Shown here piece after piece: positions 3,299 through 52,005 of a stretch of 64,000 nucleotides of DNA (positions within the stretch are counted from its first letter, which is position 1; each line of letters begins with the position of its first letter). Source of the DNA: Gammaproteobacteria bacterium. Its GTDB lineage: Bacteria; Pseudomonadota; Gammaproteobacteria; Steroidobacterales; Woeseiaceae. Position numbers and translations under genes: made by a program. Below the pieces are notes generated by a model. The model did no database searches. It was not told the origin of the DNA and saw only the letters and a list, made by a program, of their open reading frames with translations. The stretch lies in the NCBI GenBank assembly GCA_029884455.1, contig JAOUHU010000001.1, forward strand, positions 62,001 through 126,000, in the 5' to 3' direction.

Positions 3299-4782
3299 TG
3301 ACGGGCCGATTCCTGCTCGCGATTGACGCTGGTACCAGCAGCACACGCGCAGTTATCTACAATCACGATGCGGACGTGATCGCCGGTGCGCAACAGGAAT
3401 TCAAGCAGCATTACCCGCAGTCTGGCTGGGTCGAGCACGATGCCGAGGAGATCTGGGGCGCGGTACAACAAGTGACGGCAGAGGCGATGCGCAAGGCCGG
3501 GGCGCGAGCCCCCGACATTACCGGTATCGGTATCACCAACCAGCGCGAAACCACCGTGCTCTGGGAGCGGACCTCGGGTCGATGCATTTACAACGCCATA
3601 GTCTGGCAGGACCGCAGGACGGCAGGATATTGCGAGGCCATGAAGGCGGATGGCAAAGAAGCCAAAATCACGGCCAGGACCGGCTTGCGGCTGGATCCGT
3701 ATTTTTCTGCCAGCAAGATCAGCTGGTTATTGAACAACGTTGCCGGGGCACGCGAACGGGCTGATGCCGGCGAGCTTGCGTTTGGCACGATTGACACCTT
3801 TATCCTGTGGCGACTTTGCAACGGCCGTGTGCACGCGACAGATGCGAGTAATGCGTCGCGGACCATGCTTTTCAATATTCACAGCCAGGAGTGGGATGAC
3901 GATCTGCTCGCATTGTTTGACGTGCCTCGCAGTTTGCTTCCCGAAGTGCACGATTGCGCGTACCACTACGCTGATGCAGACTGCGCTGCGCTTGGTGGCA
4001 GCGTACCGGTGCTCGGCATTGCCGGTGATCAGCAGGCGGCCTTGATTGGGCAGGCGGGTTTTTTGAAGGGCATGACCAAGAGTACCTACGGAACGGGTTG
4101 TTTCGTGCTGGCGAATTCAGCCGGCGAGGCGCTGCGCTCGCACAATAGATTGTTAACAACGATTGCCTCGCGACTGGATGGCAAGGTGTGCTATGGCCTG
4201 GAGGGCAGCGTTTTTGTCGCCGGCTCGGCCCTGCAGTGGCTGCGCGACGAACTCGGCCTGATCAGCTCGGCGGCCGAATCGGAGGCGATAGCGCATAGAA
4301 CCGGTGTCGTGAACGACGTTTGCGTGGTGCCGGCGTTTACTGGTCTGGGCGCACCACACTGGGACCCGCACGCGCGTGGCGCGATCCTTGGCCTGTCACG
4401 TGGATCGAGCCGCGAGCAAATCGTCACCGCCACGTTGCAGGCAGTCGCCTTGCAGACCGCGGATCTCATCTCGGCAATGGCGGACGACGGTTTTGCGCCG
4501 GCAGTGATTCGTGTCGACGGCGGCATGGTACAAAATGACTGGTTCCTGCAGTTCCTGGCCGATATTCTCAAGCTGCCGGTTGAGCGTCCGGTTAATGTTG
4601 AGTCAACCGCGCTCGGTGCGGCCTACCTGGCCGGACTGTGTGCCGGCGTGTTCGGGTCAACCGAGGCGATTGCGTCGATGTGGAAAAGTGGAAAAATGTT
4701 CGCTCCGGCAATGGGCGACGAACAGCGCGGTTCGTTGCTTGCGGCCTGGAATGAAGCAGTAAGTCGAGTAAAAAGTGCTTAA
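3298..4782 (+). CDS. glpK: Glycerol kinase
   Basis: This 494-residue FGGY-family kinase phosphorylates glycerol to sn-glycerol 3-phosphate using ATP. Visible family blocks are the N-terminal DAGTSSTRA phosphate-binding loop, GITNQRETTVLWER, the substrate-binding YNAIVWQDRR, and the C-terminal RVDGGMVQND nucleotide-binding block. I chose the ATG at 3298, which overlaps the thioesterase stop as TGATG and gives the usual family length; an upstream in-frame start would add 58 residues inside the thioesterase gene. No glpF is adjacent, and the dehydrogenase glpD lies about 22 kb downstream behind proBA. A protein kinase gene overlaps its last 8 bases. Confidence 0.95.
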   Translation: MTGRFLLAIDAGTSSTRAVIYNHDADVIAGAQQEFKQHYPQSGWVEHDAEEIWGAVQQVTAEAMRKAGARAPDITGIGITNQRETTVLWERTSGRCIYNAIVWQDRRTAGYCEAMKADGKEAKITARTGLRLDPYFSASKISWLLNNVAGARERADAGELAFGTIDTFILWRLCNGRVHATDASNASRTMLFNIHSQEWDDDLLALFDVPRSLLPEVHDCAYHYADADCAALGGSVPVLGIAGDQQAALIGQAGFLKGMTKSTYGTGCFVLANSAGEALRSHNRLLTTIASRLDGKVCYGLEGSVFVAGSALQWLRDELGLISSAAESEAIAHRTGVVNDVCVVPAFTGLGAPHWDPHARGAILGLSRGSSREQIVTATLQAVALQTADLISAMADDGFAPAVIRVDGGMVQNDWFLQFLADILKLPVERPVNVESTALGAAYLAGLCAGVFGSTEAIASMWKSGKMFAPAMGDEQRGSLLAAWNEAVSRVKSA

Positions 4783-6061
4783 AGCGCGGCAAAAAATCGG
4801 CAAGTACAGGATTCTTGGGCGCATTGCTTCCAGTTCGCTGGCCGATGTTTATCGGGCTTACGACACTATTCAGAACACGCGGGTTGCGCTGAAGATTCCG
4901 AAGCGCACGCACAATATAGGTGAGAACGAGTTTCTGCACGAAGTGCAGGTTGCGACTCGCTTGCAGCACCCTAATATCCTGTCGGTATTGAATGCGAGCT
5001 ATGTTGACGAGCGTTTTGTCATCACGATGGAGCTTGGTGACGAATCACTGGCGGACCGGATTGAACGCAGAATGTCGACCGAACTCGCTTTGGATCTTGC
5101 GGGGCAGGCTATCGCCGCACTGGCTTATGCGCATGCCCACAAGTTTATCCATTGCGACATCAAGCCGGAAAATTACATCCTGTTTCCTGGCAATCAGCTC
5201 AAACTGACGGACTTCGGCTTCGCAAAACTCAGTTTGCGCACCTTGAAAGCATCGGGCTCCGGGACGATTGATTACATCGCGCCCGAGCAGGCGATGGGCC
5301 GACCGAAGTTCCAATCCGACGTGTTCTCTCTTGGCCTGGTCCTGTATCGCATGTTGTCGGGCCGTCTGCCGGAATGGCCATTTACCTGGCCACTCGCTGG
5401 CCATGATCGACTCAGCGCGCGTGTTTCGCCCGGAATGATCGCGATGTTGCAAAAAGCGATACAGCTGGATCCGCGCAAGCGCTACGCCAGCGCAGTGCAG
5501 ATGCAGACGGAATTCAAGCGCCTGCAAAAGCCCCGTCGCAAGCCCAGGCGTGCCAAGGCAAAAAAAATGACCAGTCACAGCGCTTCCTGGCGAAATCTGC
5601 AATGGCGAGAATTCCAGCGGCAGTTTCGCGGCAAGCTCGACACCCGGCACCAGTGCCGCAAGTGCACAGGGCCGGTGGCCGAGTCGATGCTCGCCTGTCC
5701 CTGGTGTGGCATCGACGATCCGACGCGCGGCACCGAATCGACGATGCCATCCAGTTGCCCGCGTTGCGAGCGCGGCGTCAAGAACGACTGGGACTATTGC
5801 GCGTGGTGTTACGGACCTGGCTTTGCGGAAGAAACAACGCGGGTCTATGCGGACAAACGTTATACGGCGCGTTGCGGCAATGCCCGCTGCAAGGGACTGT
5901 TAATGCCATTCATGCGCTATTGTCCGTGGTGCCGCAGCAAGGTGCGCAGACCATGGAAAATAGCCGGCCACAAGGATAGCTGCACATCGTGTCACTGGGG
6001 TATTGCCAGGGAATTCTGGAATTATTGTGCGTGGTGCAAGAAGGCGATTCAGCGTGCCTGA
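4775..6061 (+). CDS. Ser/Thr protein kinase with degenerate nucleotide loop and four C-terminal zinc ribbons
   Basis: This is a 428-residue cytoplasmic protein. Residues 1-255 form a Hanks-type kinase: the lysine of VALKIPK, the catalytic loop HCDIKPEN, DFGFAK, and GTIDYIAPEQ. The glycine-rich loop is degraded (GRIASSSLADV in place of GxGxxGxV), and HCD replaces HRD, so the kinase is non-RD. A very basic linker follows (residues about 250-270). From about residue 290 to the end there are four Cys-pair units, each two CxxC-type knuckles, repeating forms of CPWC or CAWC; these look like zinc ribbons. It starts at a GTG that overlaps the end of glpK and overlaps the phosphatase gene downstream. 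It probably phosphorylates FHA-ligand proteins encoded in the same cluster, with the PP2C as its opponent. Confidence 0.85.
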   Translation: MLKARQKIGKYRILGRIASSSLADVYRAYDTIQNTRVALKIPKRTHNIGENEFLHEVQVATRLQHPNILSVLNASYVDERFVITMELGDESLADRIERRMSTELALDLAGQAIAALAYAHAHKFIHCDIKPENYILFPGNQLKLTDFGFAKLSLRTLKASGSGTIDYIAPEQAMGRPKFQSDVFSLGLVLYRMLSGRLPEWPFTWPLAGHDRLSARVSPGMIAMLQKAIQLDPRKRYASAVQMQTEFKRLQKPRRKPRRAKAKKMTSHSASWRNLQWREFQRQFRGKLDTRHQCRKCTGPVAESMLACPWCGIDDPTRGTESTMPSSCPRCERGVKNDWDYCAWCYGPGFAEETTRVYADKRYTARCGNARCKGLLMPFMRYCPWCRSKVRRPWKIAGHKDSCTSCHWGIAREFWNYCAWCKKAIQRA

Positions 6062-6881
6062 GACACCGATAATCGATCCGCTGGTGCTGGACGGCGCTAC
6101 CGCGCCGGACCGACATCACGTATTGGTCGCAGGTGGGGAGTCGGTCGCGTTTTGCGCGCCGTCGCCGGATGGCAACAGCGAAAACCAGGATTCGGTAGCG
6201 ATTATTCCATACGGGCCGCAGGCGGCCGTGTTCGTCGTTGCCGATGGTGCGGGGGGACTTCCGGCAGGGCGCCTGGCGTCGCAGACCGCCGTGCATGCGC
6301 TGATCGCGCAGCTCAACCAGGCGAGCGAAAGGACCATCATGCTACGCACTGCAATTCTCGATGGCATTGAGGCCGCCAATGCGGCTGTTTTGAGCCTTGC
6401 CAATGGTGCAGCAACCACCTTTACCGTGATCACGATCGAAGGCGTGACAGCCCGTGCCTATCAGGTTGGTGATTCCGAGGCGATCATTGTCGGGCAGCGC
6501 GGTGTCATTCGTTTGCAGACCGTGTCGCATTCGCCGACCGGGCTTGCCGTGGAGGCCGGATTCCTAGACCAGCGCGAAGCCTTGCACCATGAAGACCGCC
6601 ACCTGGTGTCTAATTTCCTGGGTACAGCAAATATGCGCATCGACATCGGCACCGAAATCAGGTTGCGACCACGTGACACGGTAATTCTCGCCAGCGACGG
6701 CCTGATGGATAACGTGCACACCACCGAGATTATCGAGCGTGTCCGCAAAGGCCCGCTGCCAAAGGCCGCAGACGCTGTCATAGCACTGGCGCGCCGTCGC
6801 ATGAACGGTACCGCGGTGGAGCAGCCCAGCAAGCCGGACGACCTGTCGCTGATCCTGTTTCGCAAGCCCAACCAGGCCTGA
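6054..6881 (+). CDS. PP2C-type Ser/Thr protein phosphatase
   Basis: This 275-residue PPM/PP2C phosphatase keeps the metal-binding acidic residues: N-Q-D in NSENQDSV, VVADGAGG, ILASDGLMDN and the C-terminal DDLSLILF. It should remove phosphate from Ser/Thr residues in an Mn/Mg-dependent way. I chose the GTG at 6054, which has GAAGG nine bases upstream and overlaps the kinase stop; an upstream ATG at 6003 would add 17 residues with no family resemblance. The kinase-phosphatase pairing with an 8-base overlap is a strong sign of one regulatory module, as in known eukaryotic-like kinase/PP2C pairs. A 187-base gap separates it from the next gene. Confidence 0.88.
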   Translation: MPETPIIDPLVLDGATAPDRHHVLVAGGESVAFCAPSPDGNSENQDSVAIIPYGPQAAVFVVADGAGGLPAGRLASQTAVHALIAQLNQASERTIMLRTAILDGIEAANAAVLSLANGAATTFTVITIEGVTARAYQVGDSEAIIVGQRGVIRLQTVSHSPTGLAVEAGFLDQREALHHEDRHLVSNFLGTANMRIDIGTEIRLRPRDTVILASDGLMDNVHTTEIIERVRKGPLPKAADAVIALARRRMNGTAVEQPSKPDDLSLILFRKPNQA

Positions 6882-7026
6882 CGGGCAAGTCGCCAAATTA
6901 TGTCATTGCTGCGCGCCGCATTCGGCTTGTATGGCAAATACCGGAGTTGATCGTCCGTGACGCAGGTATTATTGTCGTCGATGGAACTCAGGCGAGCTTT
7001 TTTGGCTCAAAGCGAGTTACCACGGC

Positions 7027-7048
7027 AGTTTGGTGATGCCACCAAACT
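7027..7048. promoter_or_regulatory. Perfect 9-bp inverted repeat upstream of the lipoprotein gene
   Basis: AGTTTGGTG and CACCAAACT flank an ATGC loop, giving a perfect 9-bp stem 20 bases before the lipoprotein ATG at 7069 and just before its GAGGGCAGG ribosome-binding region. No T-run follows, so it is not a classical intrinsic terminator. It could be an operator or an mRNA hairpin that tunes translation. It lies in the only sizeable gap (6882-7068) inside the first half of the cluster, where a second promoter would be expected. I see no convincing -35/-10 pair there. Confidence 0.45.
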
Positions 7049-7068
7049 CGCCACAAGAGGGCAGGACA

Positions 7069-8208
7069 ATGAGGCACAGGCAAAATATTAGGTCGGTACT
7101 CGGCTGGATCAAGCCGTTCCTGTTGGCCGCACTGGCCACTCTGATTATCGGTGCCTGCAAGTCCGAGACCGGTTCGACAGGCGGCGTGCCGGCCCCGCCG
7201 GGCGGTATGCCGATGCCTGGTGGCGGAATGCCTGCTCCGCCGGGTCCTTCCGGCGGCGGATCGTCCGGTGGTTCCTCGGGTGGTGATTCCTCGGGCGGTG
7301 ATTCCTCGGGCGGTGATTCCTCGGGCGGCGGTTCCTCAGGTGGTGGTTCCTCGGGCAGTGGCATGCCGGGTGGCGGTGTTCCGCTGCCCGGTGGCGGCCC
7401 GTCGGGCGGCGGCGGTCCGAGCGGCCAGTCCGGTGACGGCGATGGTGCGGGCGATGTCGGCAGGTTCCCGGGCGACGATCCGCTCGGTGTTCCGCCCCCA
7501 CCCAGCCAGCAGGGCGCTGGCGGCGCCGACGGCGAGGGCGAAGCTGGAGCAGAGGGCGAAGCCGGAGGCGAGGGCGAAGCCGGAGGCGATAGCGATGGCG
7601 AAGCCGACGGTGAGGCGGGCGGCGAATGCGGTGACAGCGGCGCGTTGCCCGGCGGCATCGGCGGCATGGGTGAGGCCGGTGAATGCATCGGCGGGTCAGA
7701 ATCGGAAACGACGAATGTTCTTGGCGATGACGGTTCGCCATCTGGCGACGGCAGTGTTGTGGGCACCGGTGGCGCGGGCGGTGTCGGCGAGTTTCCAGGA
7801 GAGACTGCCGAGGAGCGCGCGGAGCGTCTTGGCAAGGAACTCGAAGAATCCATTGGCGGATTCGATGAAGTCCTTATGGAAGAGCAGCAGGAAATTGCAT
7901 CGGTAGGCCGCAGCACCGAGGGTTTCGGCGGCAGTGCAGGTGGCGGCGACACGAGCGGCGGCATCAGCCTGGGCGAACAGGGCGGTTCGGGCGGTGGTAT
8001 CTCGGTCGTCAATACCGGCAGGCAGCGTACCTCGCCTATTGAGGGCATGAGTGACGAGGAAATCAGCAATCGAACCCCGGACGATGTCGCAAGCATGGTC
8101 GATGACGACATCATCGCGAGACAGCTGCGGGAAGCAGCGCTGGCGGAAGAGGATCCCGCGCTTCGTGAGCGTCTGTGGGAGGAATATCGGAAGTACAAAG
8201 GGTTGTAG
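7069..8208 (+). CDS. Gly/Ser/Glu-rich lipoprotein with tandem repeats
   Basis: This 379-residue lipoprotein has a signal peptide and the lipobox IGAC at about residue 28, so it is likely membrane-anchored on the periplasmic side or exported to the outer membrane. The mature protein is dominated by low-complexity sequence: six copies of a 5-residue SSGG-type unit (7270-7359), then GEGEAG-type repeats (7531-7626). The last 110 residues are more normal and contain ERAERLGKELEES and a charged C-terminus ending near EEYRKYKGL. I chose the ATG at 7069, preceded by GAGGGCAGG; an upstream in-frame start at 7030 lies in the hairpin. Function unknown; a flexible, wall-spanning spacer is an inference. 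Confidence 0.75.
   Translation: MRHRQNIRSVLGWIKPFLLAALATLIIGACKSETGSTGGVPAPPGGMPMPGGGMPAPPGPSGGGSSGGSSGGDSSGGDSSGGDSSGGGSSGGGSSGSGMPGGGVPLPGGGPSGGGGPSGQSGDGDGAGDVGRFPGDDPLGVPPPPSQQGAGGADGEGEAGAEGEAGGEGEAGGDSDGEADGEAGGECGDSGALPGGIGGMGEAGECIGGSESETTNVLGDDGSPSGDGSVVGTGGAGGVGEFPGETAEERAERLGKELEESIGGFDEVLMEEQQEIASVGRSTEGFGGSAGGGDTSGGISLGEQGGSGGGISVVNTGRQRTSPIEGMSDEEISNRTPDDVASMVDDDIIARQLREAALAEEDPALRERLWEEYRKYKGL
7270..7359 (+). repeat. Six tandem 15-bp repeats
   Basis: Six in-frame copies of a 15-bp unit close to GATTCCTCGGGCGGT encode (G/D)SSGG. The three central copies are nearly identical at DNA level, so copy number could change by slippage without shifting frame. Confidence 0.85.
7531..7626 (+). 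repeat. 18-bp GEGEAG-type coding repeats
   Basis: Imperfect in-frame repeats with an 18-bp period encode units of GEGEAG/EGEAGG and then drift into GDSDGEADGEAGG. They lie in the same lipoprotein as the 15-bp repeats and make this part strongly acidic. Confidence 0.7.
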
Positions 8209-8217
8209 GGAGCCAAT

Positions 8218-9456
8218 TTGCAAAGTATCCATAGGGCGGCGTGTACCTTTGCGGCAATCCTGATGTTGCCCGCTTGTGCCGTTAATGAAGTCATCACGGC
8301 GGAAGAAACGGAACTGATCGTGGCGGAAGCGCCGCCGGCCGAGGATCTGCTGCTGGATATTGGCATTATTCCGTTTGCCGAAGGTGTCGCGAAAGACAAC
8401 GACCCGTCCGATACCGGCGTCTACGAGGAGATTCGCTCTGCCGAATCACGCTACCTCGCCTATCACCTGAAAACCACGTTGCAGGGCACCGGCCACTGGG
8501 GCGCTGTGCGGGTCATTCCTTCGAGCAACGCGTTCACGGACGTCATTATCCAGGGCAGCATCAAGGAGTCTGACGGCGAGTACGTAACTCTGGATATCAG
8601 CGTGAGCGATGCGCGCGGCCAGTCGTGGTACCGCAAAACCTATGCAACCCAGACCGGTGTGTCGTCGTATTCGATAAATCGTGACCGTCGCCAGGATCCT
8701 TATCAGAAAGTATTCAACGATATCGCGAATGACCTGCGGGCCCATGTCGCCCAATTGCCGCCGCAGTCGGTCACCGCGATTCAGCAGGTGTCCGAGTTAC
8801 AGTTTTTCGCCGACATGTCGCCGCTGGCTTTTGGCGAGCACCTGGCCAAGGACGAGAATGGAATCATGACTGCGGTGCGGCTGCCGGCCGAAAATGATCC
8901 CGCGGTAGATCGCCTGCGCCAGATTCGCGAACGTGACCGACTGGTTGTCGATACGCTCAACGAACACTACGCGAATTTTTACTACGGTATCGCCATCCCG
9001 TATAGCGCCTGGCGCAAGACATCGCGTGAGGAGTCCATCAACTACCGGCAGGTGAAACGTTCGGCGGCGCTGCAAACCCTGATGGGAGCAGTCGTGCTGG
9101 CAGGATCGCTGGCAGCCGATACGGATCACGGTGGCAGACAGTCGCAACGCGTCAACAATAGCTTGCAGGCGATTGGTATTCAGCAGGGTTTCGAAACCAT
9201 GATGCGCGGCTTCACGCGCCGCTCGGAAGCGAACATGCATCTTGAATCGATCGCCGAGCTGTCGGAGTCATTCGGTGCCGAGGCAGCGCCTATGGTCGTC
9301 TCGGTCGAAGGCCAGTCGCGCCGGTTGACTGGCACAGCGGCAGCGCAATACGAAAGCTGGCGCCGGATCCTGAAGGAAATCTATGAATCAGAGACCGGCT
9401 TTGTTGAGACCACCGAAGAAAGTGCTCCGGAGCGCATCCCCGAACCGACGGGATAA
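8218..9456 (+). CDS. Lipoprotein of unknown function
   Basis: This 412-residue protein starts at a TTG with a strong GGGAG five bases upstream, 9 bases after the previous stop. The signal peptide ends in the lipobox LPAC (Cys 20). The mature part contains an early block around FAEGVAKDN, a beta-rich region with DVIIQGSIKESDG, and a later hydrophobic segment near ALQTLMGAVVLAGSLAA, so part of it may associate with membrane. I recognise no named family. Its place between the Gly-rich lipoprotein and a transmembrane kinase suggests an envelope component of the same complex. Confidence 0.75.
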   Translation: MQSIHRAACTFAAILMLPACAVNEVITAEETELIVAEAPPAEDLLLDIGIIPFAEGVAKDNDPSDTGVYEEIRSAESRYLAYHLKTTLQGTGHWGAVRVIPSSNAFTDVIIQGSIKESDGEYVTLDISVSDARGQSWYRKTYATQTGVSSYSINRDRRQDPYQKVFNDIANDLRAHVAQLPPQSVTAIQQVSELQFFADMSPLAFGEHLAKDENGIMTAVRLPAENDPAVDRLRQIRERDRLVVDTLNEHYANFYYGIAIPYSAWRKTSREESINYRQVKRSAALQTLMGAVVLAGSLAADTDHGGRQSQRVNNSLQAIGIQQGFETMMRGFTRRSEANMHLESIAELSESFGAEAAPMVVSVEGQSRRLTGTAAAQYESWRRILKEIYESETGFVETTEESAPERIPEPTG

Positions 9457-9465
9457 GCAAGCGGA

Positions 9466-11808: not shown

Positions 11809-14231
11809 GTTTCGACCACCTGATCATCAAAGATGTTAGCGGCGAGCGGCGCGTTGATGCCAAAAGCTTGCCGTTGCGCGTCGGTACTGGCAGTGACTGT
11901 GGCTTGCGCCTGCCCGGGCCGGGCGGCGGTCCGGTGGTACTGCTGGATCTGCTGGACGGGGCGCCATTTGTGCAGCCAGTCGAACGGGACTCCACTGTAG
12001 AGATCAACGGTGCGCCGCTGTTGTCGAGCCGCCGGCTCGAACATGGCGACGAGCTGGAATATTTCGGCAGTCGGATTCGCGTGCTGGTCGCGGGCGAGCG
12101 ATTGCTGCTCGAGGTACGGCTCGAGGACAGCGCCTACGTGACGCGTCCACCGGAACTGGCCGAAGCCGGCACAGCGACGCCCGAAGAGACGATTGCGCCG
12201 ACCGCTTTTCAGCGTGCCAGCAAGACCCAGGCAAGCATAGCGGTCGCGCGCCACAGCCCACTCAAAACTATTGTGGGCGCAGGACTTGCGTTGCTTTTGA
12301 TTGCCTCGTACCTGCTGTTCAGCGCGCGCTCGGTCCAGTTCGATGTGGTTCCCGAGGGTGCGGACAGTCTGGATATTTCGGGCGGCTGGTTTCGCCTGCC
12401 GTTGGGCGATCGCGTGCTACTGCGGCGCGGTGAGTATACGGTCAATGTTTACAAGCAGGGGTACTATGACGTCAGCCAGGCGTTCACCGTCGGCGACGAA
12501 CCGAGTATGCGGGTTGCACTGAGCATGCGGCGCCTGCCGGGTCGACTCGCTGTGAGCACGGAACCGTTGGTCGATGCTGTTGTGTCGATAGACAACGGTC
12601 CGATCGGCAAGGTGCCGTACGGGCCGATGGAACTGCAGCCTGGCCAGCACAGCATCAGCGTACAGGCCGATCGTTTCCTGCCGTTCGACGACGTGATCGA
12701 GATAGCGGGCCTCGGTCGAGAAGAAACTTTGACGGTACAACTGGTGCCGCGCTGGTCGGATGTCACGCTGAGCTCCGAACCGCCGGGCGCAGCGATCTTC
12801 GTCGGCGATACCGAGCTCGGTATCACGCCGGCAACGATCGAGTTGCTCGAGGGCACGCACCAGGTCAGCGTGTTGCTCGCCGGATTCGCCGCCTGGGACG
12901 GAAGCGTTACTGCCGTGCCGAATGTTGCGCAGACCTTGCCGACAATTGTCCTGCAGCCGGCGAATGCCAGCTTGCAGGTCACGACCATTCCGCGCGGCGC
13001 CAACATTACCGTCGACGGTCGATATCGCGGCCAGTCGCCAATGACGCTGTCGCTGTCGCCGGGTATCGACTACTCGATCGGGCTGTCCAAGGCGGGCTAT
13101 GGTTCGGCCACCAGGAAAGTGCGCCTGGCTGCGGCCGCAAGAGATTCGATTACGGTGGATCTGTCGGCGCGCACAGGGCAGGTGACGGTCAACGTATCGC
13201 CAGCGGACGCAATAATCCTGGTCGACGGCGCGGAGCGCAGCAAGGGTTCGGCGACGCTCAACCTGAGTTCGGCGCCACACACCATTGTCGTGAAAAAAGA
13301 GGGTCATGAGAGTTTGTCACGGTCGGTAACACCCCGACCCGGTTACCCGCAGACCCTGAGCGTGCGACTGCGCTCACTGGAGGAGATCGAACGCGCCAAG
13401 ATTCAGCAGACGCAGAAGACTGCGTCCGAGCAGATCATGCGACGCATCGAACCAGGAACATTCATGCTCGGCTCGTCACGTGCGGACCCTGGGCGTCGCG
13501 CCAACGAGGTTCTGGTACCGGTTACTATTTCGCGTCCGTACCTGATCAGCGTGCGCGAAGTCAGCAACAAAGAATTTGCGCAGTTTCGGGCCAATCACGA
13601 TTCTGGCAGCGACGTCCATCCGGCGATGTCTGCGGATACCAATCCGGTCGCGCGCGTCACCTGGGCCGATGCGGCCGAATATTGCAATTGGCTCAGCGCT
13701 ATCGAGGGCCTGCCGCCAGCCTATGAGCAAAAGTTCGGGGAGTGGGTCGCGATTCGTCCCTTGACCAATGGCTATCGCCTGCCGACCGAAGCCGAATGGG
13801 CCTGGGCAATCCGCTATTCCGGAGCGGCCACTGCGCCCAGGTTTGCCTGGGGTCCTGGCATGCCGCCGAAAAAGGATTCGGGTAATTTTGCCGATCGTTC
13901 AGCGGCCGATCTGGTGCCCACCATCATTCCCGGGTTCGACGATGGATTTGCTTCGACCGCGCCCACCGGCATGTTTGCGCCGAGTGCTATCGGGATTTAT
14001 GACGGCAGTGGCAATGTCGCCGAGTGGGTCAATGACTTTTACAGTGTGCCGACGCCTGGTTTGCGGACGCCGCTGGTCGATCCGCTCGGCCCGGACCAGG
14101 GCCAGACCTACGTGATTCGCGGCTCATCCTGGCGGCATGCCGGTGAAACCGAGTTGCGGCTAAGCTTTCGTGACTATGGCAACGAGGCGCGCACTGACGT
14201 CGGCTTCAGAATTGCCCGGACCCTGGATTGA
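11805..14231 (+). CDS. Membrane protein: FHA-like domain, PEGA repeats, SUMF1-like domain
   Basis: This 808-residue protein begins at a TTG preceded by GAGGAAG. Residues 1-105 look FHA-like (RVGTGSDCGLRLPG, later INGAPL and HGDELEYFG) although the canonical SxxH motif is not clear. A membrane helix covers about residues 154-173. At least four PEGA-type beta repeats follow (about 175-530), each with a P/G-A-x-hydrophobic-x-V-D pattern. From about residue 545 to the end is a formylglycine-generating-enzyme-like (SUMF1) domain: IEPGTFMLGS, GNVAEWVNDF, RGSSWRH and GFRIAR. The active-site cysteines of true FGE are absent, so it is probably a binding domain, not an enzyme. The FHA-like end would sit in the cytoplasm, within reach of the kinases. 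Confidence 0.85.
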   Translation: MSFDHLIIKDVSGERRVDAKSLPLRVGTGSDCGLRLPGPGGGPVVLLDLLDGAPFVQPVERDSTVEINGAPLLSSRRLEHGDELEYFGSRIRVLVAGERLLLEVRLEDSAYVTRPPELAEAGTATPEETIAPTAFQRASKTQASIAVARHSPLKTIVGAGLALLLIASYLLFSARSVQFDVVPEGADSLDISGGWFRLPLGDRVLLRRGEYTVNVYKQGYYDVSQAFTVGDEPSMRVALSMRRLPGRLAVSTEPLVDAVVSIDNGPIGKVPYGPMELQPGQHSISVQADRFLPFDDVIEIAGLGREETLTVQLVPRWSDVTLSSEPPGAAIFVGDTELGITPATIELLEGTHQVSVLLAGFAAWDGSVTAVPNVAQTLPTIVLQPANASLQVTTIPRGANITVDGRYRGQSPMTLSLSPGIDYSIGLSKAGYGSATRKVRLAAAARDSITVDLSARTGQVTVNVSPADAIILVDGAERSKGSATLNLSSAPHTIVVKKEGHESLSRSVTPRPGYPQTLSVRLRSLEEIERAKIQQTQKTASEQIMRRIEPGTFMLGSSRADPGRRANEVLVPVTISRPYLISVREVSNKEFAQFRANHDSGSDVHPAMSADTNPVARVTWADAAEYCNWLSAIEGLPPAYEQKFGEWVAIRPLTNGYRLPTEAEWAWAIRYSGAATAPRFAWGPGMPPKKDSGNFADRSAADLVPTIIPGFDDGFASTAPTGMFAPSAIGIYDGSGNVAEWVNDFYSVPTPGLRTPLVDPLGPDQGQTYVIRGSSWRHAGETELRLSFRDYGNEARTDVGFRIARTLD

Positions 14232-14300
14232 AGTTTCGTGCGACAATCCTCGTTGATTGTGGTCTATACCCTGTAGCTTGAATTACATGGAGGGGCTGGC

Positions 14301-14552
14301 ATGCGCGCTGCGCTGTTGCTGATGGTGTCAATTGCAGTTCTCAATCCGCCCGCTGCGGCGCAGCAGGACGATGCGTCGGCGCCAACCGACGCCGAAGAAG
14401 TAGTGACCGAGTCGGAACCAGTTGCCGAACCGGATCCCGCAGTGGAGCCGGTCATGGATGATGTGTTTTACCAGGATATTGACGACAAGGACTTTCGTCC
14501 CAGCGAAGATATCCCGACGGATCAGTCGATTCCGTTTCCCACCGATATCTAG
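14301..14552 (+). CDS. Small secreted acidic protein
   Basis: An 83-residue protein starts at an ATG with GGAGGGG nine bases upstream. Residues 1-21 form a cleavable-looking signal peptide (MRAALLLMVSIAVL...AAAQ). The mature part is very acidic and Pro-rich, with a VVTESEPVAEPDPAVEP stretch and an FYQDIDDKDF block. No family recognised. It lies in a 336-base interval between the SUMF1 protein and the TolQ-like gene and is only 15 bases from the latter. A similar small secreted protein precedes the ExbB gene of the second cluster (49824-50270), so the two may be analogous accessory subunits. Confidence 0.65.
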   Translation: MRAALLLMVSIAVLNPPAAAQQDDASAPTDAEEVVTESEPVAEPDPAVEPVMDDVFYQDIDDKDFRPSEDIPTDQSIPFPTDI

Positions 14553-14567
14553 ACAGAACCAACGCCT

Positions 14568-15368
14568 ATGAAGAAGAAAACCGTTCCGTTCGAATTTGTG
14601 TACCAGTTATTCGCACTCATTATCGCGATTATCGTTGTACATGCGTTTTACGTGTCCGTCGTACGGCCAAATGCCGCGCAGATTATCGAAGAACAGAACA
14701 TCGCAGCCAAGGCCGACCCGGACTATGTCCGTGAACGCAGCGTCTGGGTCCTGATCAAGGATCTCGAGCAGGAGTCGTGTTTCATACTTGGCATCTGGGC
14801 ACTGGCCATCATGGGTTACAAGTCGATGCTGACGGTACGCGAGCGTCGCCTGCTGGATGTTGACCTCGTACCAGTGGCGGAGGGCATGCGCATACTGCCG
14901 GAAGACACACGTGAGTTCGCCCGGCAAATTGAGCAATTGCCGGATGACCGACAGGACCAGTTATTGCCGCGAGCACTGCTTGGTGCTCTGCGACGATTTA
15001 ATTCGACGCGCAATATCCAGGACGTCTCCAGTACGACGCACACGATTTGCGAAAACGAGGCCGAGCGACTTGAGTCCGAGCTATCCATGATTCGTTATAT
15101 TTCGTGGGCGATTCCGTCTATAGGATTTATCGGCACTGTGCGCGGCATTGGCGAGGCGCTCGCACAGGCTGACAAGGCGGTGCAGGGCGATATTGCCGGC
15201 GTCACCCAGAGCCTCGGCGTCGCGTTTAACTCAACTTTCATCGCGTTGTTGATCAGTATTGTGCTGATGTTTCTGGTGCATCAGCTGCAGTTATTGCAGG
15301 AGCGGCTGGTGTTCGACAGCGAAAACTATGCCAATGACAAATTGATCCGCCACATGAAGGCGGACTAA
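14568..15368 (+). CDS. TolQ/ExbB/MotA-like proton channel subunit
   Basis: This 266-residue membrane protein has an N-terminal helix (about 10-30), a second around residues 68-85, a cytoplasmic middle part, and two C-terminal helices. The core segments IPSIGFIGTVRGI and LGVAFNSTFIALLISI match the TolQ/ExbB pattern, including the GT of the first helix and the Thr of the second that line the ion path. Such proteins form a pentamer around a dimer of TolR/ExbD/MotB-type helices and convert ion flow into motion. No normal ExbD lies beside it, but the two vWA proteins downstream carry a TolR-like N-terminal helix and are the probable partners. Confidence 0.85.
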   Translation: MKKKTVPFEFVYQLFALIIAIIVVHAFYVSVVRPNAAQIIEEQNIAAKADPDYVRERSVWVLIKDLEQESCFILGIWALAIMGYKSMLTVRERRLLDVDLVPVAEGMRILPEDTREFARQIEQLPDDRQDQLLPRALLGALRRFNSTRNIQDVSSTTHTICENEAERLESELSMIRYISWAIPSIGFIGTVRGIGEALAQADKAVQGDIAGVTQSLGVAFNSTFIALLISIVLMFLVHQLQLLQERLVFDSENYANDKLIRHMKAD

Positions 15369-15380
15369 CGGCGACCTCAA

Positions 15381-16748
15381 TTGAGCCTGCTAGCAGCACA
15401 CCTTAACGATGCCGGGATCTCGGTACTCGATAATGAACGCATCCTGTATCGGCAACCGGGATTCGCCTTGTTGGACGAGAATGAGCTGAAGACCGGCGAT
15501 GCCGCGTTCGCGAACGCTCGTATCAAGCCGCGTCAAATTCAGAACCGGTACTGGTTTGACCTGCAAACAACACCACTGCCGGACCGTCGCTTTCAGCACC
15601 TGAGCTCTGCTGACTTGGTAAGCCGGCAACTGGAACAAATCTGGTCTGCCGTCGCACATCGGGGTGATCGGTTGGTGGTAGCTGTACCAGCGTACATGAA
15701 CAGTAGCCAGCTGGCACTGTTCCTCGGCATTGCTGCGGAGATCGGTGTGCCGGTTATCGCCATGGTCGATGCGGCAATCGCCGCAACCCGGCGGGAATAT
15801 AGAAACGCCGTGCCTGTGCATGTCGATCTCAGTCTGCACGCGACCCTGCTAACACGAATTTCGCAACCTGGTCAGGCGCAGACAGAGCGTGCAGAAATTG
15901 TTGAGGACAGCGGGTTGCTGGCGCTGAATGATGCCTGGTTGCGCGCAATTGCAGATGCTTTTGTGCGGCAGTCACGCTTCGATCCGCTGCACACCGCAGA
16001 AACGGAACAGGTATTGCAGAACCAGCTGGCAGCCTGGATTTTCGCGGCATCGGCTAACGAGGCTGTCGAGATGGAGATCACCCACCGCGGCATACTGCAC
16101 TCGGCAGTGATTGAATCGCTGGCACTCATTGCCGCCGCGGCACCCGTCTATCAACGCATTATCAGCCGCTTGCGCGCGCTGTATCGTGCCTACGAGACAC
16201 CCGCTATTCAGTTGAGCGATCTTGCGGCACGCATGCCGGGTCTCGGCGACATGCTCTCGGCGCGTGTCGGCGGCCAGGTCTTCCTGCTCGAGGCCGGCGC
16301 CACGGCGCGCGGCCTGATCAGCCGTTGTCGCGACATGGCCGTAGCTGAAGGCGGTATCAGTTTGTTGCGAACTTTGCCGTGGGATCAATCTCCGGTCAGC
16401 GTACAGGCATCGCAGCGTGCTGATCAGGGCGGTCGGCCAACGCACGTGCTGTTTGAGCACGTCGCCTACGAGATTGATGAGCGGCCGCTCAACCTGGGAT
16501 CACAGCCGGACAGCGACGGGCGCTGGCTTGATCTTCAGGACCACATGCCCGGCGTGTCCCGGCGGCATTGTGTGCTGCGACGCGAGAACGGCCAGTGCAT
16601 TGTGCAGGACTTCAGCCGCTACGGCACCTTTCTCAATGGCCATGCGATCGACGGTTCGGCCGTACTGCAAGTTGGCGACTCGATTCGCCTTGGCACGCCA
16701 GGATTCGAACTGCAGCTGATTACAACGGAGCTGGCAAATGGCACGTAA
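15381..16748 (+). CDS. Hsp70/actin-fold-like protein with C-terminal FHA domain
   Basis: This 455-residue protein starts at a TTG 12 bases after the TolQ-like gene. The N-terminal ~330 residues resemble the actin/Hsp70 ATPase fold: VVAVPAYMNSSQ followed by IGVPVIAMVDAAIAA, which parallels the Hsp70 VPAYFND...INEPTAAAL region. The assignment is by pattern only, and nucleotide-binding residues are not certain. From about residue 355 a clear FHA domain follows, with the phosphopeptide-binding GVSRRHC and SRYGTFLNG motifs. It should read phosphothreonine marks made by the cluster's kinases, in the cytoplasm next to the channel. It overlaps the first vWA gene by 11 bases. Confidence 0.75.
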   Translation: MSLLAAHLNDAGISVLDNERILYRQPGFALLDENELKTGDAAFANARIKPRQIQNRYWFDLQTTPLPDRRFQHLSSADLVSRQLEQIWSAVAHRGDRLVVAVPAYMNSSQLALFLGIAAEIGVPVIAMVDAAIAATRREYRNAVPVHVDLSLHATLLTRISQPGQAQTERAEIVEDSGLLALNDAWLRAIADAFVRQSRFDPLHTAETEQVLQNQLAAWIFAASANEAVEMEITHRGILHSAVIESLALIAAAAPVYQRIISRLRALYRAYETPAIQLSDLAARMPGLGDMLSARVGGQVFLLEAGATARGLISRCRDMAVAEGGISLLRTLPWDQSPVSVQASQRADQGGRPTHVLFEHVAYEIDERPLNLGSQPDSDGRWLDLQDHMPGVSRRHCVLRRENGQCIVQDFSRYGTFLNGHAIDGSAVLQVGDSIRLGTPGFELQLITTELANGT

Positions 16749-17835
16749 GCGCCGTCAATTCGAAGTCTTCAGCATGTCTTTCCTTGACTGCATGAGTTGT
16801 GGTTTTGGCGCCGTGATCCTGTTTTTCATGATTATCAATGCGCAGGTCAGGGAGACCACCGAAGACGACCCGAGCAACCTGATGGCGGAAACCAGGAAAC
16901 TGGAGATAGAAATCCTTGATGGCCGCAAGGACCTGGTGCTGGCAAAAAATACTATGGAGCAGCTCGACACCGAGCGAAATACGGCGGAGGGACAAATTGC
17001 GCAGATCATCGCTCTGATCCAGCAACTGCAGGCCGAGCTTGCGCAATACGACAACGACACGCTGGCCAAAGTCGAGCGTGTCGAACAGCTGGAAAGTGAC
17101 ATCAAGTCATTAGAGGAGGAGGTCAAACGGCTGCTTGCGATGGCGGCAGAGCAGCAGGCGCAGGGTAACCGGCAGCGCGAATTTCAAGGCGATGGCGATC
17201 GCCAGTACTTGACCGGCCTGAAGCTCCGTGGCCGGCACACGCTGATACTTGTTGACCGTTCCGCCAGCATGCTTGACGACACTATCGTCAACGTTATTCG
17301 GCGACGTAATATGAGCATCGAGGACAAGCTGGCTGCGGTCAAATGGCGCCAGGTGGTGGCCAGCGTCGATTGGCTTACCACGCAGTTCGAACCGGGCAGC
17401 GAGTTCCAGATTTACATGTTCAACACCGAAGCAGTGCCGGTCATCAAGGGCACTGAAGGTGTCTGGTTAAAGGCCGATGACATAACCCAGATCAACGAGG
17501 CCATTCGCGTGTTGCGTATCACGCCGCCGGAAAATGGCACTAACATGAAAGCCGCCTATGAAGTTGCGGCAATGCTGTCACCACGGCCGGACAACATCAT
17601 CCTGTTGGTCGACGGCCTGCCGACAATGGATGGACCGACCGCAGGCCGCAACACGATCAGCGGCCAGGAACGATTCAACCTGCATTTTCGGGCGATTCGG
17701 GAGCTACCGTCCGGAATCCCGGTAAACGTTTTCCTCTATCCCATGGAGGGTGACTACGAAGCACCAATTCTTTACTGGCAATTGGCGTTTCAGTCGCGCG
17801 GGTCCATGATCAGTGTCAGTCGTGACTGGCCGTAA
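16738..17835 (+). CDS. vWA protein with TolR-like N-terminal helix (1)
   Basis: This is a 365-residue protein. Residues 8-32 form one membrane helix with FSMSFLDCMSCGFGAVIL; its FLD motif aligns with the PFLDV of TolR, which holds the proton-carrying Asp. A coiled coil spans about residues 45-135. The rest is a von Willebrand factor A domain with the MIDAS motif DRSAS and the downstream GTNMKAA Thr region and LLVDGLP. Topology predicted: short N-terminus inside, vWA in the periplasm. Its ATG lies inside the end of the FHA gene. It is a paralogue of the next gene, with the same helix, coiled coil and vWA order. No named family comes to mind. Confidence 0.82.
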   Translation: MARKRRQFEVFSMSFLDCMSCGFGAVILFFMIINAQVRETTEDDPSNLMAETRKLEIEILDGRKDLVLAKNTMEQLDTERNTAEGQIAQIIALIQQLQAELAQYDNDTLAKVERVEQLESDIKSLEEEVKRLLAMAAEQQAQGNRQREFQGDGDRQYLTGLKLRGRHTLILVDRSASMLDDTIVNVIRRRNMSIEDKLAAVKWRQVVASVDWLTTQFEPGSEFQIYMFNTEAVPVIKGTEGVWLKADDITQINEAIRVLRITPPENGTNMKAAYEVAAMLSPRPDNIILLVDGLPTMDGPTAGRNTISGQERFNLHFRAIRELPSGIPVNVFLYPMEGDYEAPILYWQLAFQSRGSMISVSRDWP

Positions 17836-17853
17836 CAATATGGGTTGTCGCAC

Positions 17854-18849
17854 ATGAAACGCCGCCGCAATGTTGAAGCCTTCAGCTTGTCTTTCCTGGA
17901 CTGCATTTGTTGCGGTTTCGGTGCAATTATCCTGTTGCTGGTGCTGAGCAAGATTTACGAGCCCGTAATTATTGAGAAAACCCAGGATGACCTCGAGTCG
18001 TTAATCGCGTTGTTGCAGCAGGAGTTATTTGACATCCGCGGCCAGACCACGGTGTTGAATCGCGATCTTGAAAATGTGCGGCTGCAGACTTCCGATAGCA
18101 AGCTGCAACTGGCGCGGCTGCAGGGCGAACTCGAGACAGTGCGCGGCCAGTACGCGGCGACTGTGCGAGAGTCCGAATCCGAGATCGACGAGGGCGCGCT
18201 GCGCGTGACCAGGCAGCGACTCACCGAGGAAATGCGCAGGCTTGCGCCTTATTACCGACGTGCCTCGGACGATGCGGTAGCCGGCATACCGGTGGACAGC
18301 GAATACGTCATATTTATCGTCGACACCTCAGGCAGTATGCAGCAGTACAACTGGGACCGGGCGATTCAGAAACTGAACGAAACGCTGGACGTTTATCCGC
18401 AAGTCAAGGGCTTGCAGATTATGAACGACAACGGTAGCTTCATGTTTCAACAGTACGCCGGCAAGTGGATTCCGGACACGCCGGGACGGCGCGAGGCGAT
18501 CATTAACACGATGCGCAACTGGCGACCGTTCAGCGACAGTAACCCGGCCGATGGCATCATTTACGCGATCAGTACGTTCTGGTCGGCCGAAAAGAAGATC
18601 AGTGTCTATGTGTTCGGCGATGAGTTCAGCGGTGGATCGGTTGAAAGTGTCATACGCCAGATCGAATCAGTGAACCGCATTGACGCGTCAGGAAATAGGC
18701 TGGTGCGCATACACGCGGTGGGCTTCCCGTACTTTTTTGAAGGTGGCCGCGAAATTCCCGATACTGCACGTCGCTTTGCGCAGCTGATGCGCGTGCTTTG
18801 CGATCGTAACGGCGGTACCTTCGTGGCTTTATCCGATCCGCGCAGCTAA
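17854..18849 (+). CDS. vWA protein with TolR-like N-terminal helix (2)
   Basis: This 331-residue protein is a paralogue of its upstream neighbour. The N-terminal helix FSLSFLDCICCGFGAIIL repeats the FLDC..CGFGA pattern almost exactly. A coiled coil covers about residues 35-115 and a von Willebrand A domain about 145-325, with an intact MIDAS motif DTSGS. I chose ATG 17854, nine bases after a GGG, over the in-frame TTG at 17845. Two different TolR-like subunits next to one TolQ-like gene suggest a heterodimeric rotor or plug, like ExbD pairs or PomB/MotB dimers. The vWA domain would bind a protein ligand through a metal ion in the periplasm. Confidence 0.82.
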   Translation: MKRRRNVEAFSLSFLDCICCGFGAIILLLVLSKIYEPVIIEKTQDDLESLIALLQQELFDIRGQTTVLNRDLENVRLQTSDSKLQLARLQGELETVRGQYAATVRESESEIDEGALRVTRQRLTEEMRRLAPYYRRASDDAVAGIPVDSEYVIFIVDTSGSMQQYNWDRAIQKLNETLDVYPQVKGLQIMNDNGSFMFQQYAGKWIPDTPGRREAIINTMRNWRPFSDSNPADGIIYAISTFWSAEKKISVYVFGDEFSGGSVESVIRQIESVNRIDASGNRLVRIHAVGFPYFFEGGREIPDTARRFAQLMRVLCDRNGGTFVALSDPRS

Positions 18850-18953
18850 ACCGCCACAATTCGTCACAATTGATCGTTGACTTGTCATGATGCCGGCGCC
18901 TGGCGAGCCGAATTCAATTGCGTAATGGACTCCGAAGACTCACCTAATCCTTT

Positions 18954-18958
18954 GGAGG
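18954..18958 (+). promoter_or_regulatory. Ribosome-binding site deciding the OmpA-like start
   Basis: GGAGG lies eight bases before ATG 18967. This fixes the start there and not at an in-frame codon 30 residues upstream, which would bury the signal peptide. Confidence 0.75.
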
Positions 18959-18966
18959 ACAGCAGT

Positions 18967-19668
18967 ATGAAACAGAGCATTTTCCTGATTGCAGTTATTT
19001 CCCTGGTCGCAGCGCCGGGTGCATTCGCCGGCAGTGCATCACGTGAAGAAAACATCGGCGTCGGCTCCGGTGCGCTGGTAGGGGCAATCGCCGGCGGGCC
19101 CGTCGGATTGATCGTCGGTGCCGCATTTGGCGCCAAGCTTGGCGACACCCTGCACAAAAAGAACGAGTCCATCGAAACCATTTCAGCTGCTCTCGACGCT
19201 GCACGCGGCGACATCCGGAGTCTTAATTCTGACTACGACTCGTTGAGTGCTGATCTGCGGCGCATGCAACAGCTGTCGCGACCCGAACTGGTCAGCCTGA
19301 TGCAGGCCGGGATTGCCATGGACCTGTTGTTTCGTACCGACGAACACGTGCTGGCTGATACTACTGCGGAACGCCTGGCGTCGATGGCCGCAACGCTTGC
19401 AGCTATGAAAGATATCCAGGTCCGGCTGGACGGATTTGCCGACGAGCGCGGTGCGGCTGACTACAATTTCAAGTTGTCGGAGCAGCGCGTCGACTTCGTC
19501 CGTGAGCAGCTGATCGCAGCTGGTGTGCACCCCTCACGAATTGAGGTTGTTGCGCACGGTGAGGTGGCTGCCCAGGATGCGTCCGCGGACAGCTATGCGC
19601 TTGAGCGGCGTGTAAGCCTTACCTTGTTTATCGCGGCCGCAGAAGCGGTGGCGCAGCTGCCGGACTAG
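18967..19668 (+). CDS. OmpA-family protein with glycine zipper
   Basis: This 233-residue protein has a signal peptide (residues 1-20, ending AFAG), then a glycine-zipper segment (GVGSGALVGAIAGGP and on, G every fourth residue) that may insert in a membrane, a helical stretch, and a C-terminal OmpA-like peptidoglycan-binding domain with FADERG and NFKLSEQRVDFVREQL, keeping the Asp and Arg that bind diaminopimelate. The order glycine zipper - OmpA recalls the sortase-associated PdsO type, but no sortase is nearby. A 117-base gap precedes it. Inferred role: anchor of the TolQ/vWA complex to peptidoglycan, as Pal or MotB do for related motors. Confidence 0.85.
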   Translation: MKQSIFLIAVISLVAAPGAFAGSASREENIGVGSGALVGAIAGGPVGLIVGAAFGAKLGDTLHKKNESIETISAALDAARGDIRSLNSDYDSLSADLRRMQQLSRPELVSLMQAGIAMDLLFRTDEHVLADTTAERLASMAATLAAMKDIQVRLDGFADERGAADYNFKLSEQRVDFVREQLIAAGVHPSRIEVVAHGEVAAQDASADSYALERRVSLTLFIAAAEAVAQLPD

Positions 19669-38613: not shown

Positions 38614-39405
38614 CTATTCTTCGGGGTCTGGCATTCCAAACGTGCGCACTTCGGCCTGATCCTCTGCCGTGGCAGCGGGCGCGACAGAAGTACCGCTTTG
38701 CATACCCGGCGTGGTCGGCAGGCGACGCGTCTGCGCTGTCAGGATCTGCACAAAAGTGTTGGCAATGTCCGGAGCAATATTGGGCGAACTCGCGAATATT
38801 CTTTCCGGCGACATATTGGTTGCGCCATAGAAGCGGACATTCGCGTCGCGATCCATGGTCACCCCGGACCCCTCAAGTGATACTCCGGCAAACAAACCGC
38901 GGCTACGTGAATACGATAAGACTTCAGCTTCGAAAGCCAGGTCAGTGGCGGCGGCAGCGGCACGCCCGACCGGCCCCGCCGCAACTGAAGCACCGCCACC
39001 TAGCGTGAGCTTGCCATTTTCAATATCCGAAACGCCCTTGCGGGTTTTGAATACCAGGATGACGTCGGCTGATTCCACACCTGCCTGCCAGCCGACACTG
39101 CCGGCTGTTAACGTGACAAATGCCGGATTACTCCACGAATTGTCATCCTGACGCACTACGATAATACCTTTGCCACGACGAGCACCGAGAACGAAGCCCG
39201 CTTTGATGACATCCGGAATCACAGCAACGGCGTAGGCGCGGGCCAGAAGCGATGGTGGAATGGTTTTTTCCGGAATCCGCAGGAACTGATCCAGCACGTC
39301 GGCTGCGTCCGCAACCCGCTGTTCTTCGCGAGTCGCCGCAGCAACCGGTATTGCGACAACCAGCGCCAATAGCGCCAGCAGGGACTTGAGGCTTAAATCA
39401 TGCAT
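38614..39405 (-). CDS. SYLF-domain lipid-binding protein
   Basis: This 263-residue protein has a signal peptide (MHDLSLKSLLALLALVVAIP...) and a SYLF/YSC84-type domain with AYAVAVIPDVIKAGFVLGARRGKG and the FKTRKGVSDI, TLGGGASVAAGPVGR segments. SYLF proteins bind phosphoinositides or other lipids and are often periplasmic in bacteria. The start ATG 39405 overlaps the end of the M48 peptidase gene by 8 bases, so the three minus-strand genes LemA, M48 and SYLF form one operon. Longer upstream frames would lack a signal peptide. Confidence 0.88.
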   Translation of the reverse strand: MHDLSLKSLLALLALVVAIPVAAATREEQRVADAADVLDQFLRIPEKTIPPSLLARAYAVAVIPDVIKAGFVLGARRGKGIIVVRQDDNSWSNPAFVTLTAGSVGWQAGVESADVILVFKTRKGVSDIENGKLTLGGGASVAAGPVGRAAAAATDLAFEAEVLSYSRSRGLFAGVSLEGSGVTMDRDANVRFYGATNMSPERIFASSPNIAPDIANTFVQILTAQTRRLPTTPGMQSGTSVAPAATAEDQAEVRTFGMPDPEE

Positions 39406-41362: not shown

Positions 41363-41395
41363 TGTCTGCCTGCTGTTAGGTGCACTCTGCGCGGA

Positions 41396-41986: not shown

Positions 41987-41994
41987 TGTCACAC

Positions 41995-42000
41995 TCCTTG
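41995..42000 (-). promoter_or_regulatory. Ribosome-binding site deciding the LemA start
   Basis: AAGGAG on the minus strand lies eight bases before GTG 41986, so the shorter 196-residue LemA is favoured over the longer frame that runs into the divergent ApbE gene. Confidence 0.8.
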
Positions 42001-42012
42001 TCGAAGTACAGA

Positions 42013-49818: not shown

Positions 49819-49823
49819 CCGAT

Positions 49824-50270: not shown

Positions 50271-50282
50271 AGGAGCAAGTCG

Positions 50283-50924: not shown

Positions 50925-50927
50925 GGC

Positions 50928-51440: not shown

Positions 51441-51443
51441 GTC

Positions 51444-51974: not shown

Positions 51975-52005
51975 GTCACGCGGGACGATATTCAGGGAGT
52001 TACAC

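Follow-up and report, generated by a model that had tools for sequence, protein, structure and literature searches.

A conserved envelope operon around a TolQ-like channel and two vWA proteins, probably a force transducer with optional phospho-control

The closest described relatives of the operon reported here are motors in which proteins with a transpore helix and a von Willebrand factor A domain (TPH-vWA proteins) form heterologous pairs with TolQ (Williams-Jones et al. 2025; PMC12204202). In the portion of that paper available to us, the family is traced from Idiomarina seeds, its members are modelled with AlphaFold 3 (AF3) in the same motor geometry that we propose below, and the motors are reported without a function and without further partners. 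The main text of a second paper (PMC12505986), as far as available, makes no mention of vWA. The locus at issue occupies positions 4775–19668 of a 64,000-nucleotide stretch (the window; contig JAOUHU010000001.1, positions 62,001–126,000) from a gammaproteobacterium of the Woeseiaceae, whose genome measures 3.33 Mb and is 89% complete. Here the TolQ-like gene and a pair of vWA genes belong to a nine-gene set that is conserved across several phyla and includes a lipoprotein (LP2), a small secreted protein with a fixed C-terminal end (the tail protein) and an Hsp70-FHA protein. We consider it probable that the products form a proton-driven force transducer running from the inner to the outer membrane, with phospho-control as an option.

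An earlier note on this DNA had proposed an undescribed machine. That description has to be withdrawn for the core: TolQ with paired vWA proteins is not new, because the same arrangement is found in the available part of PMC12204202. For the wider operon, of which PMC12204202 covers the TolQ and vWA core as far as its text was available, our literature search turned up no published description. Judged by described features, the likeness consists of a TolQ-like gene, two different vWA proteins with an aspartate in the helix and a ring of threonines. The published loci likewise have no TolR/ExbD; in the genome studied here there are eight ExbD-family matches, none of them at the operon. The main text of PMC12204202, in the form available, contains neither ‘kinase’ nor ‘PEGA’ and its sole match to ‘FHA’ is FhaC, whereas the present operon adds LP2, the tail protein and the Hsp70-FHA protein.

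The Tol–Pal system also has a TolQ-like subunit, and the N-terminal domain of LP2 resembles domain 1 of TolB, but no ExbD-type TolR lies at the operon in this genome, and Pfam and NCBIfam searches of the conserved operon proteins showed no TolA, TolB propeller or Pal. GldKLMN of the type IX secretion system (T9SS) similarly combines a motor with a SUMF1-fold protein. In the present operon, however, the SUMF1 part is fused to PEGA domains and a transmembrane (TM) helix, its best NCBIfam match, GldK, stays below the equivalog level (85 bits versus a cut-off of 350) and no match to GldL, GldM or GldN is listed. The AglRQS–Glt gliding machinery has one TolQ-like protein with two different TolR-like partners, but the partners in this operon end in vWA domains. 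With models of the type VI secretion system, TagH (TIGR03354) gives 32 bits versus 120 over the FHA part, and the OmpA-like protein scores 33 versus 520 and 30 versus 140 against TssL, reaching no cut-off.

The region comprises twelve plus-strand genes whose junctions mostly overlap or measure at most 50 bases. Open reading frames (ORFs) and Pfam matches bear out the parts named in the earlier note essentially as claimed, with the following features:

4775–6061, plus strand: K1, a Ser/Thr kinase with C-terminal zinc ribbons, optional (Pkinase 124 bits; DZR 25.6 bits, just under the cut-off of 27.3).
6003–6881, plus strand: PP2C phosphatase, optional (PP2C_2, 53 bits).
7030–8208, plus strand: Gly-rich protein, probably starting at ATG 7069, whose copy in the window has a lipobox; C-terminal block conserved across loci.
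8218–9456, plus strand: LP2 lipoprotein, with a predicted TolB-N/CsgG/PelC/FlgT-like N-terminal domain and a long helical hairpin (AlphaFold2, VIA-align, Foldseek).
9466–11808, plus strand: TPR protein with a single TM helix, fused to a cytoplasmic Ser/Thr kinase (Pfam); the kinase is optional across loci.
11805–14231, plus strand: TM protein with four PEGA domains and a SUMF1/formylglycine-generating enzyme (FGE) fold without Cys in the C-terminal motif (Pfam PEGA, four matches; FGE-sulfatase).
14301–14552, plus strand: small secreted tail protein of 83 aa with the C-terminus F-P-T-D-I (ORF, conserved end).
14568–15368, plus strand: TolQ/MotA/ExbB-like channel subunit (Pfam MotA_ExbB), with Thr190 and Thr223 invariant.
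15381–16748, plus strand: predicted Hsp70-type nucleotide-binding domain (NBD) fold with degenerate phosphate loops (model), followed by FHA (Pfam); frequent, not universal.
16738–17835, plus strand: vWA1, with a transpore-type helix carrying Asp17, a coiled-coil-like stretch and a vWA domain with a full set of metal ion-dependent adhesion site (MIDAS) residues (VWA_2 28.2 versus a cut-off of 27).
17845–18849, plus strand: vWA2, built like vWA1, likely start ATG 17854 (VWA_2 21.5, below the cut-off of 27).
18877–19668, plus strand: glycine-zipper/OmpA-like (PdsO-like) protein, a lineage-bound neighbour (Pfam OmpA; TIGR03789 122 bits versus a cut-off of 152).

Two FHA or FHA-like proteins had been claimed; the one at 15381–16748 has the domain, in company with the Hsp70-type fold, but the N-terminus of the PEGA/SUMF1 protein has no Pfam FHA match at E 0.1. 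No RNA family reached threshold anywhere in the window, and between 4500 and 20200 neither promoter-like sites (2 versus 5.3 in shuffles) nor terminator-like sites (12 versus 14.3) exceed chance.

Conservation was followed in three samples: (i) a class sample, with vWA1 in 20 of 274 evenly drawn genomes, the window's own included; (ii) a phylum sample, with vWA2 in 16 of 398 evenly drawn genomes, again including the window's own and with 13 in one family, of which 12 of the 16 regions were examined; and (iii) a named sample, the best 80 of at least 587 stretches from species genomes that code for vWA2 relatives, which leans to close relatives of the window. Record titles among these best 80 include Woeseiaceae, Halieaceae, Desulfobacterales, Myxococcales, Kiritimatiellia, Phycisphaerales and Acidobacteriota. 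Carriers of the operon include a cultured environmental isolate, Seongchinamella sediminis (L127). Among the matches listed, the nearest named relative of vWA2, at 93% identity, comes from a metagenome-assembled genome (MAG) titled Proteobacteria bacterium, with a Woeseiaceae MAG at 81%; no two of 110 vWA2 sequences are identical. Loci spanning LP2 to vWA2 number 71 (12 class, 49 named and 10 phylum) and come from Gammaproteobacteria, a second proteobacterial class and MAGs titled Desulfobacterales, Myxococcales, Kiritimatiellia and Phycisphaerales. Since the profiles used to detect the families derive from the class loci, the independent part of the evidence is that from the named and phylum loci.

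In all 71 spanning loci the profile search finds the TPR, PEGA/SUMF1, TolQ, vWA1 and vWA2 genes alongside LP2, and in 69 of them the order GlyLP (the Gly-rich protein)–LP2–TPR–PEGA/SUMF1–TolQ–(Hsp70-FHA)–vWA1–vWA2 is kept on one strand. Order was judged by stop positions; some automatic calls were misled by stop-to-stop ORF starts. Both exceptions retain all parts, TolQ being placed after vWA2 in one (L039) and the two halves lying on opposite strands in the other (L087). A further locus outside the 71 (L042) has its TolQ on a different contig of the same genome, present but unlinked. TolQ is at the locus in 19 of the 20 class loci, the twentieth genome having it elsewhere, and vWA1 and vWA2 are paired in 18/20 class and 78/80 named loci, the remaining four ending at a contig or locus edge.

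The residues expected of a motor are equally constant. The two vWA proteins are paralogues (hhalign probability 99.8), each with a positively charged N-terminus, one TM helix and, in the window, the sequence SFLDCxxCGFGA; the helix aspartate is D in 71/71 loci for vWA1 and in 71/71 for vWA2. Thr190 and Thr223 of TolQ are both kept in 83/83 sequences. These counts agree with the claim of one conserved system that unites a TolQ-like channel with a pair of vWA proteins whose helices are TolR-like. In vWA2 the DxSxS and Asp elements of the MIDAS are conserved, without a conserved Thr at the usual third place.

LP2 is the candidate for the outer-membrane end of the system. Its AlphaFold2 model has a mean predicted local distance difference test (pLDDT) score of 86, and VIA-align relates the N-terminal domain to FlgT (Z 11.0), PelC (10.6), CsgG (9.7–9.2), PqiC (8.7) and domain 1 of TolB, over a range down to about 8. 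FlgT, PelC, CsgG, PqiC and TolB act at the outer membrane or in the adjoining periplasm, and it is because its fold relatives act there that LP2 may be the outer-membrane partner. The predicted likeness is a resemblance of fold, not a family assignment; a sequence search for solved relatives found none, with a best E of 0.51. Upstream of LP2, the Gly-rich gene is found in 65 of the 71 spanning loci. In the six others LP2 adjoins the edge of the stretch, and in two of these (L156, L157) the Gly-rich gene appears once more flank is fetched. Its product has a conserved C-terminal block, dDDivArQlREAA..E.DP.lrekLW.EYrkYkg. In two genomes of the class, an ORF of about 430 aa lies upstream of this gene (L189, 14977–16254; L190, 15654–17003), the L189 one matching TPR and, weakly, TonB_C.

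The tail protein sits between PEGA/SUMF1 and TolQ, is secreted or signal-anchored and measures 49–136 aa where its length was determined. The middle is variable, often acidic or Pro-rich, and the C-terminal end is fixed; in family f198 the part beyond the hydrophobic segment is only about 17 residues long. Of 83 PEGA–TolQ junctions, 76 contain an ORF with the ending [FYLM]-P-x-D-[I/M], compared with 0/83 on the opposite strand, 0/83 in shuffled sequence and 0/83 inside the PEGA gene, and the overall consensus [F/Y/L/M/I]-P-x-[D/N]-[I/M] accounts for all 86 loci that carry the PEGA gene. Rearranged loci keep it too (FPADI in L039 and IPSDM in L042, both behind PEGA, and FPVDI before TolQ in L087), and in the whole window the ending is unique among ORFs of at least 30 residues. 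The protein matches no family model. A free C-terminus kept so constant suggests a dedicated binding site. Tentatively, and with considerable doubt, we envisage the tail protein as a force-bearing ligand whose [F/Y]-P-x-[D/N]-I end might be gripped, through the Asp or the free carboxylate, either by a vWA MIDAS or by LP2's TolB-like domain, the heterodimeric vWA stator pulling on, loading or releasing this peptide hook. If true, such a hook would link a 5:2 motor with the outer membrane in a further way, in addition to the TonB box, TolA–TolB and OmpA-type anchors.

Two further proteins may lack the activities of their fold families. The SUMF1 part carries an RGSSW-type sequence, and at what we take to be the place of the catalytic-Cys motif of the FGE no Cys occurs in any of the 58 regions found (28 of the 86 proteins gave no region with the pattern); because the motif is without Cys, the fold is probably non-catalytic. 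The 15381–16748 product has an Hsp70-type NBD fold by structure prediction (Z 30.3, root-mean-square deviation 3.3 over 322 residues versus 2v7y; Foldseek best E 6.1e-17), with FHA after it where Hsp70 would have its substrate-binding domain. GTT/GGG-type loops are the phosphate-binding motifs of Hsp70, and since none is present in the commonest blocks (top eight variants) the domain may not hydrolyse ATP. In the FHA part, aligned over 69 rows, the Ser of S-R-x-H is kept in 51, its His in 49 and the Asn of N-G in 60, and Arg stands at what is presumably the usual phospho-binding column in 4 rows (13 when six neighbouring columns are allowed). The gene is present in 59/71 spanning loci, after removal of a spurious 17-bit upstream match in L047 (60/71 with it), and was not found in eight spanned loci of f198, a family of another class. 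Two stretches flagged by hydropathy were considered as membrane segments and rejected, the structure model placing both inside the soluble fold.

The kinases and the phosphatase are less constant. Of the 71 loci, 35 have a TPR protein with a fused kinase domain (3/12 class, 32/49 named, 0/10 phylum). Eight of the 35 fail a crude catalytic-motif pattern, which overlooks some kinases, since one of the eight (L037) has a high kinase score. The K1/PP2C pair adjoins the operon in 2 of the 12 spanning class loci (L038 ends too early to tell). A PP2C search of 44 of the 80 named genomes gave an orthologue above 200 bits in 21. PP2C lies at most 12 kb from TolQ in 11 of these and beside the operon's first genes at contig breaks in two more (L152 and L153, the linkage in L153 resting on a 25-bit Gly-rich fragment), so that 13 of the 44 genomes have the pair linked to the operon. 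Records titled Woeseiaceae account for six of these 13, and the others carry broader titles. PP2C is unlinked in eight genomes, six of which still have a K1 kinase adjoining it. K1 and PP2C are thus a switch that lies either beside the operon or apart from it, and the flank searches led us to reject the pair as core. In L144–L148 and L151, genomes having the operon, K1/PP2C pairs lie distant from it.

The earlier note had read all twelve genes as a single system, gated by phosphorylation and anchored to the wall, and had held that rare adjacency of the vWA pair and TolQ to kinase and phosphatase genes would count against this. Such separation is seen in part, in the linkage counts of both the PP2C pair and the fused kinase: the single system stands for the core, present in 71/71, but does not extend to kinase and phosphatase as constant parts. 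Gating of the stator by phosphorylation is not a general principle, because the fused kinase (absent from 36/71) and K1/PP2C are missing from many loci; it may operate in Woeseiaceae-like bacteria. Wall anchoring by the OmpA-like protein fares no better as a rule: its gene is lineage-bound (27/80 named, 2/20 class and 0/12 phylum loci), and we rejected this PdsO-like gene as a core component.

From the gene set, the gene order, the conserved residues and the predicted folds, we infer a stoichiometry, a use of protons, locations and contacts for the parts, and a movement. In a 5:1:1 stator, five TolQ-like subunits would enclose two transpore helices, one from vWA1 and one from vWA2, and proton flow through the conserved Asp/Thr site would turn or shift the vWA pair. 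Periplasmic coiled coils and the MIDAS-bearing (adhesion-type) vWA domains could relay this movement, with the PEGA/SUMF1 and TPR proteins as a putative scaffold at the inner membrane and in the periplasm, and LP2, with its TolB-N/CsgG-type fold, as the candidate partner at the outer membrane. The F-P-x-D-I tail protein would serve as a dedicated ligand or tether for a periplasmic domain, and the Hsp70-FHA protein as a cytoplasmic adaptor. Phospho-control would be added by the TPR-fused kinase in some lineages and by the extra K1/PP2C pair in Woeseiaceae-like genomes.

In favour of this force-transducer model, distance matrices of six core proteins correlate at 0.78–0.88 (permutation maximum 0.34), as expected of co-inheritance; plain vertical descent would give such values too, and interaction is not separable from it. 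Several observations weigh against the model. Foldseek relates LP2 to TolB first, weakly, with a best E of 4.4e-3 and no match below 0.001; the Z values for LP2 are moderate, and its place at the outer membrane is an analogy with fold relatives. Of 42 longer Gly-rich ORFs, only 17 have a lipobox that a pattern recognizes. In the other 7 of the 83 junctions the tail reads FPSNI or FPTNI, with N for D (that of L076 was found in a later scan). A comparison aimed at a partner of the tail showed that, of 230 columns conserved in the D-tail loci, one is altered in these seven: a TolQ His (88/89 otherwise) is Tyr in five of L059, L065, L066, L072, L076, L078 and L088, which is perhaps clade history. 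For the published relatives, the available text of PMC12204202 reports no deletion phenotype for the first vWA family and gives none for the second.

The same parts could work in reverse, as a sensor in which the vWA, TPR and LP2 proteins read envelope load or the tail ligand and signal inward to the kinase, the FHA adaptor and PP2C, with the channel as a gauge. The kinases fused to or linked with the operon at the frequencies given above are consistent with such a flow, but the channel, the vWA pair and LP2 persist in the eight f198 loci in which neither a fused kinase nor Hsp70-FHA was found, and we think a sensor unlikely. An export or surface-polymer machine, with LP2 forming a CsgG/PelC-like outer-membrane ring and the motor driving export, perhaps of the tail protein, would account for the likeness of LP2 to FlgT, PelC, CsgG and PqiC (Z 11.0 to 8.7) and for the small secreted protein that accompanies the operon. 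We regard it as distinctly unlikely: TolB is the top Foldseek match of LP2, and no exporter gene is among the eight neighbour proteins of four loci, a survey that was not systematic.

Highly improbable, finally, is an anti-phage defence of the Zorya kind. The ZorA profile scores 19 bits (E 1.4e-4) on TolQ and the ZorB profile 22 bits on the OmpA-like protein, and the kinases give generic matches to kinase models, PD-T4-6 among them; these weak scores stand alone, however, with no ZorC–ZorD or ZorE match among the scanned proteins, and the gene order is fixed over several phyla. We rejected this reading, since PADLOC gave only generic kinase models, a weak PP2C model and the weak ZorA/ZorB scores; its further matches were of coiled-coil type on the vWA proteins, with one weak on the OmpA-like protein. 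For the force-transducer model, the conserved operon provides a parts list, in which LP2 is the candidate partner at the outer membrane, two proteins are scaffolds, one is an adaptor and a minimal conserved tail allows a direct search for what it binds. As phospho-control is an add-on, relatives without the kinases are open to study of the motor.

A second motor locus lies at 44485–52962 of the window, with TPR proteins, a TolQ-like protein (50283–50924) and two ExbD-type proteins (50928–51974); it ends in a Pro-rich protein without a Pfam match whose layout is TonB-like by eye (52006–52962). Its content resembles the published arrangement of tolQ, two tolR and TPR genes. The eight neighbour proteins mentioned above offer no common lead, being endonuclease I (in two f198 loci), an M48 peptidase, a TPR/TonB_C-like protein, a thioesterase-like protein, a sensor kinase and two proteins without a match. 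Elsewhere in the window, 28576–30813 encodes a patatin domain followed by a weak Omp85 match (20 bits, cut-off 24), 31865–35890 a 1341-aa protein with AAA-like, proprotein-convertase P and WD40 domains, and 38614–42109, on the minus strand, consecutive Ysc84, M48 peptidase and LemA genes.

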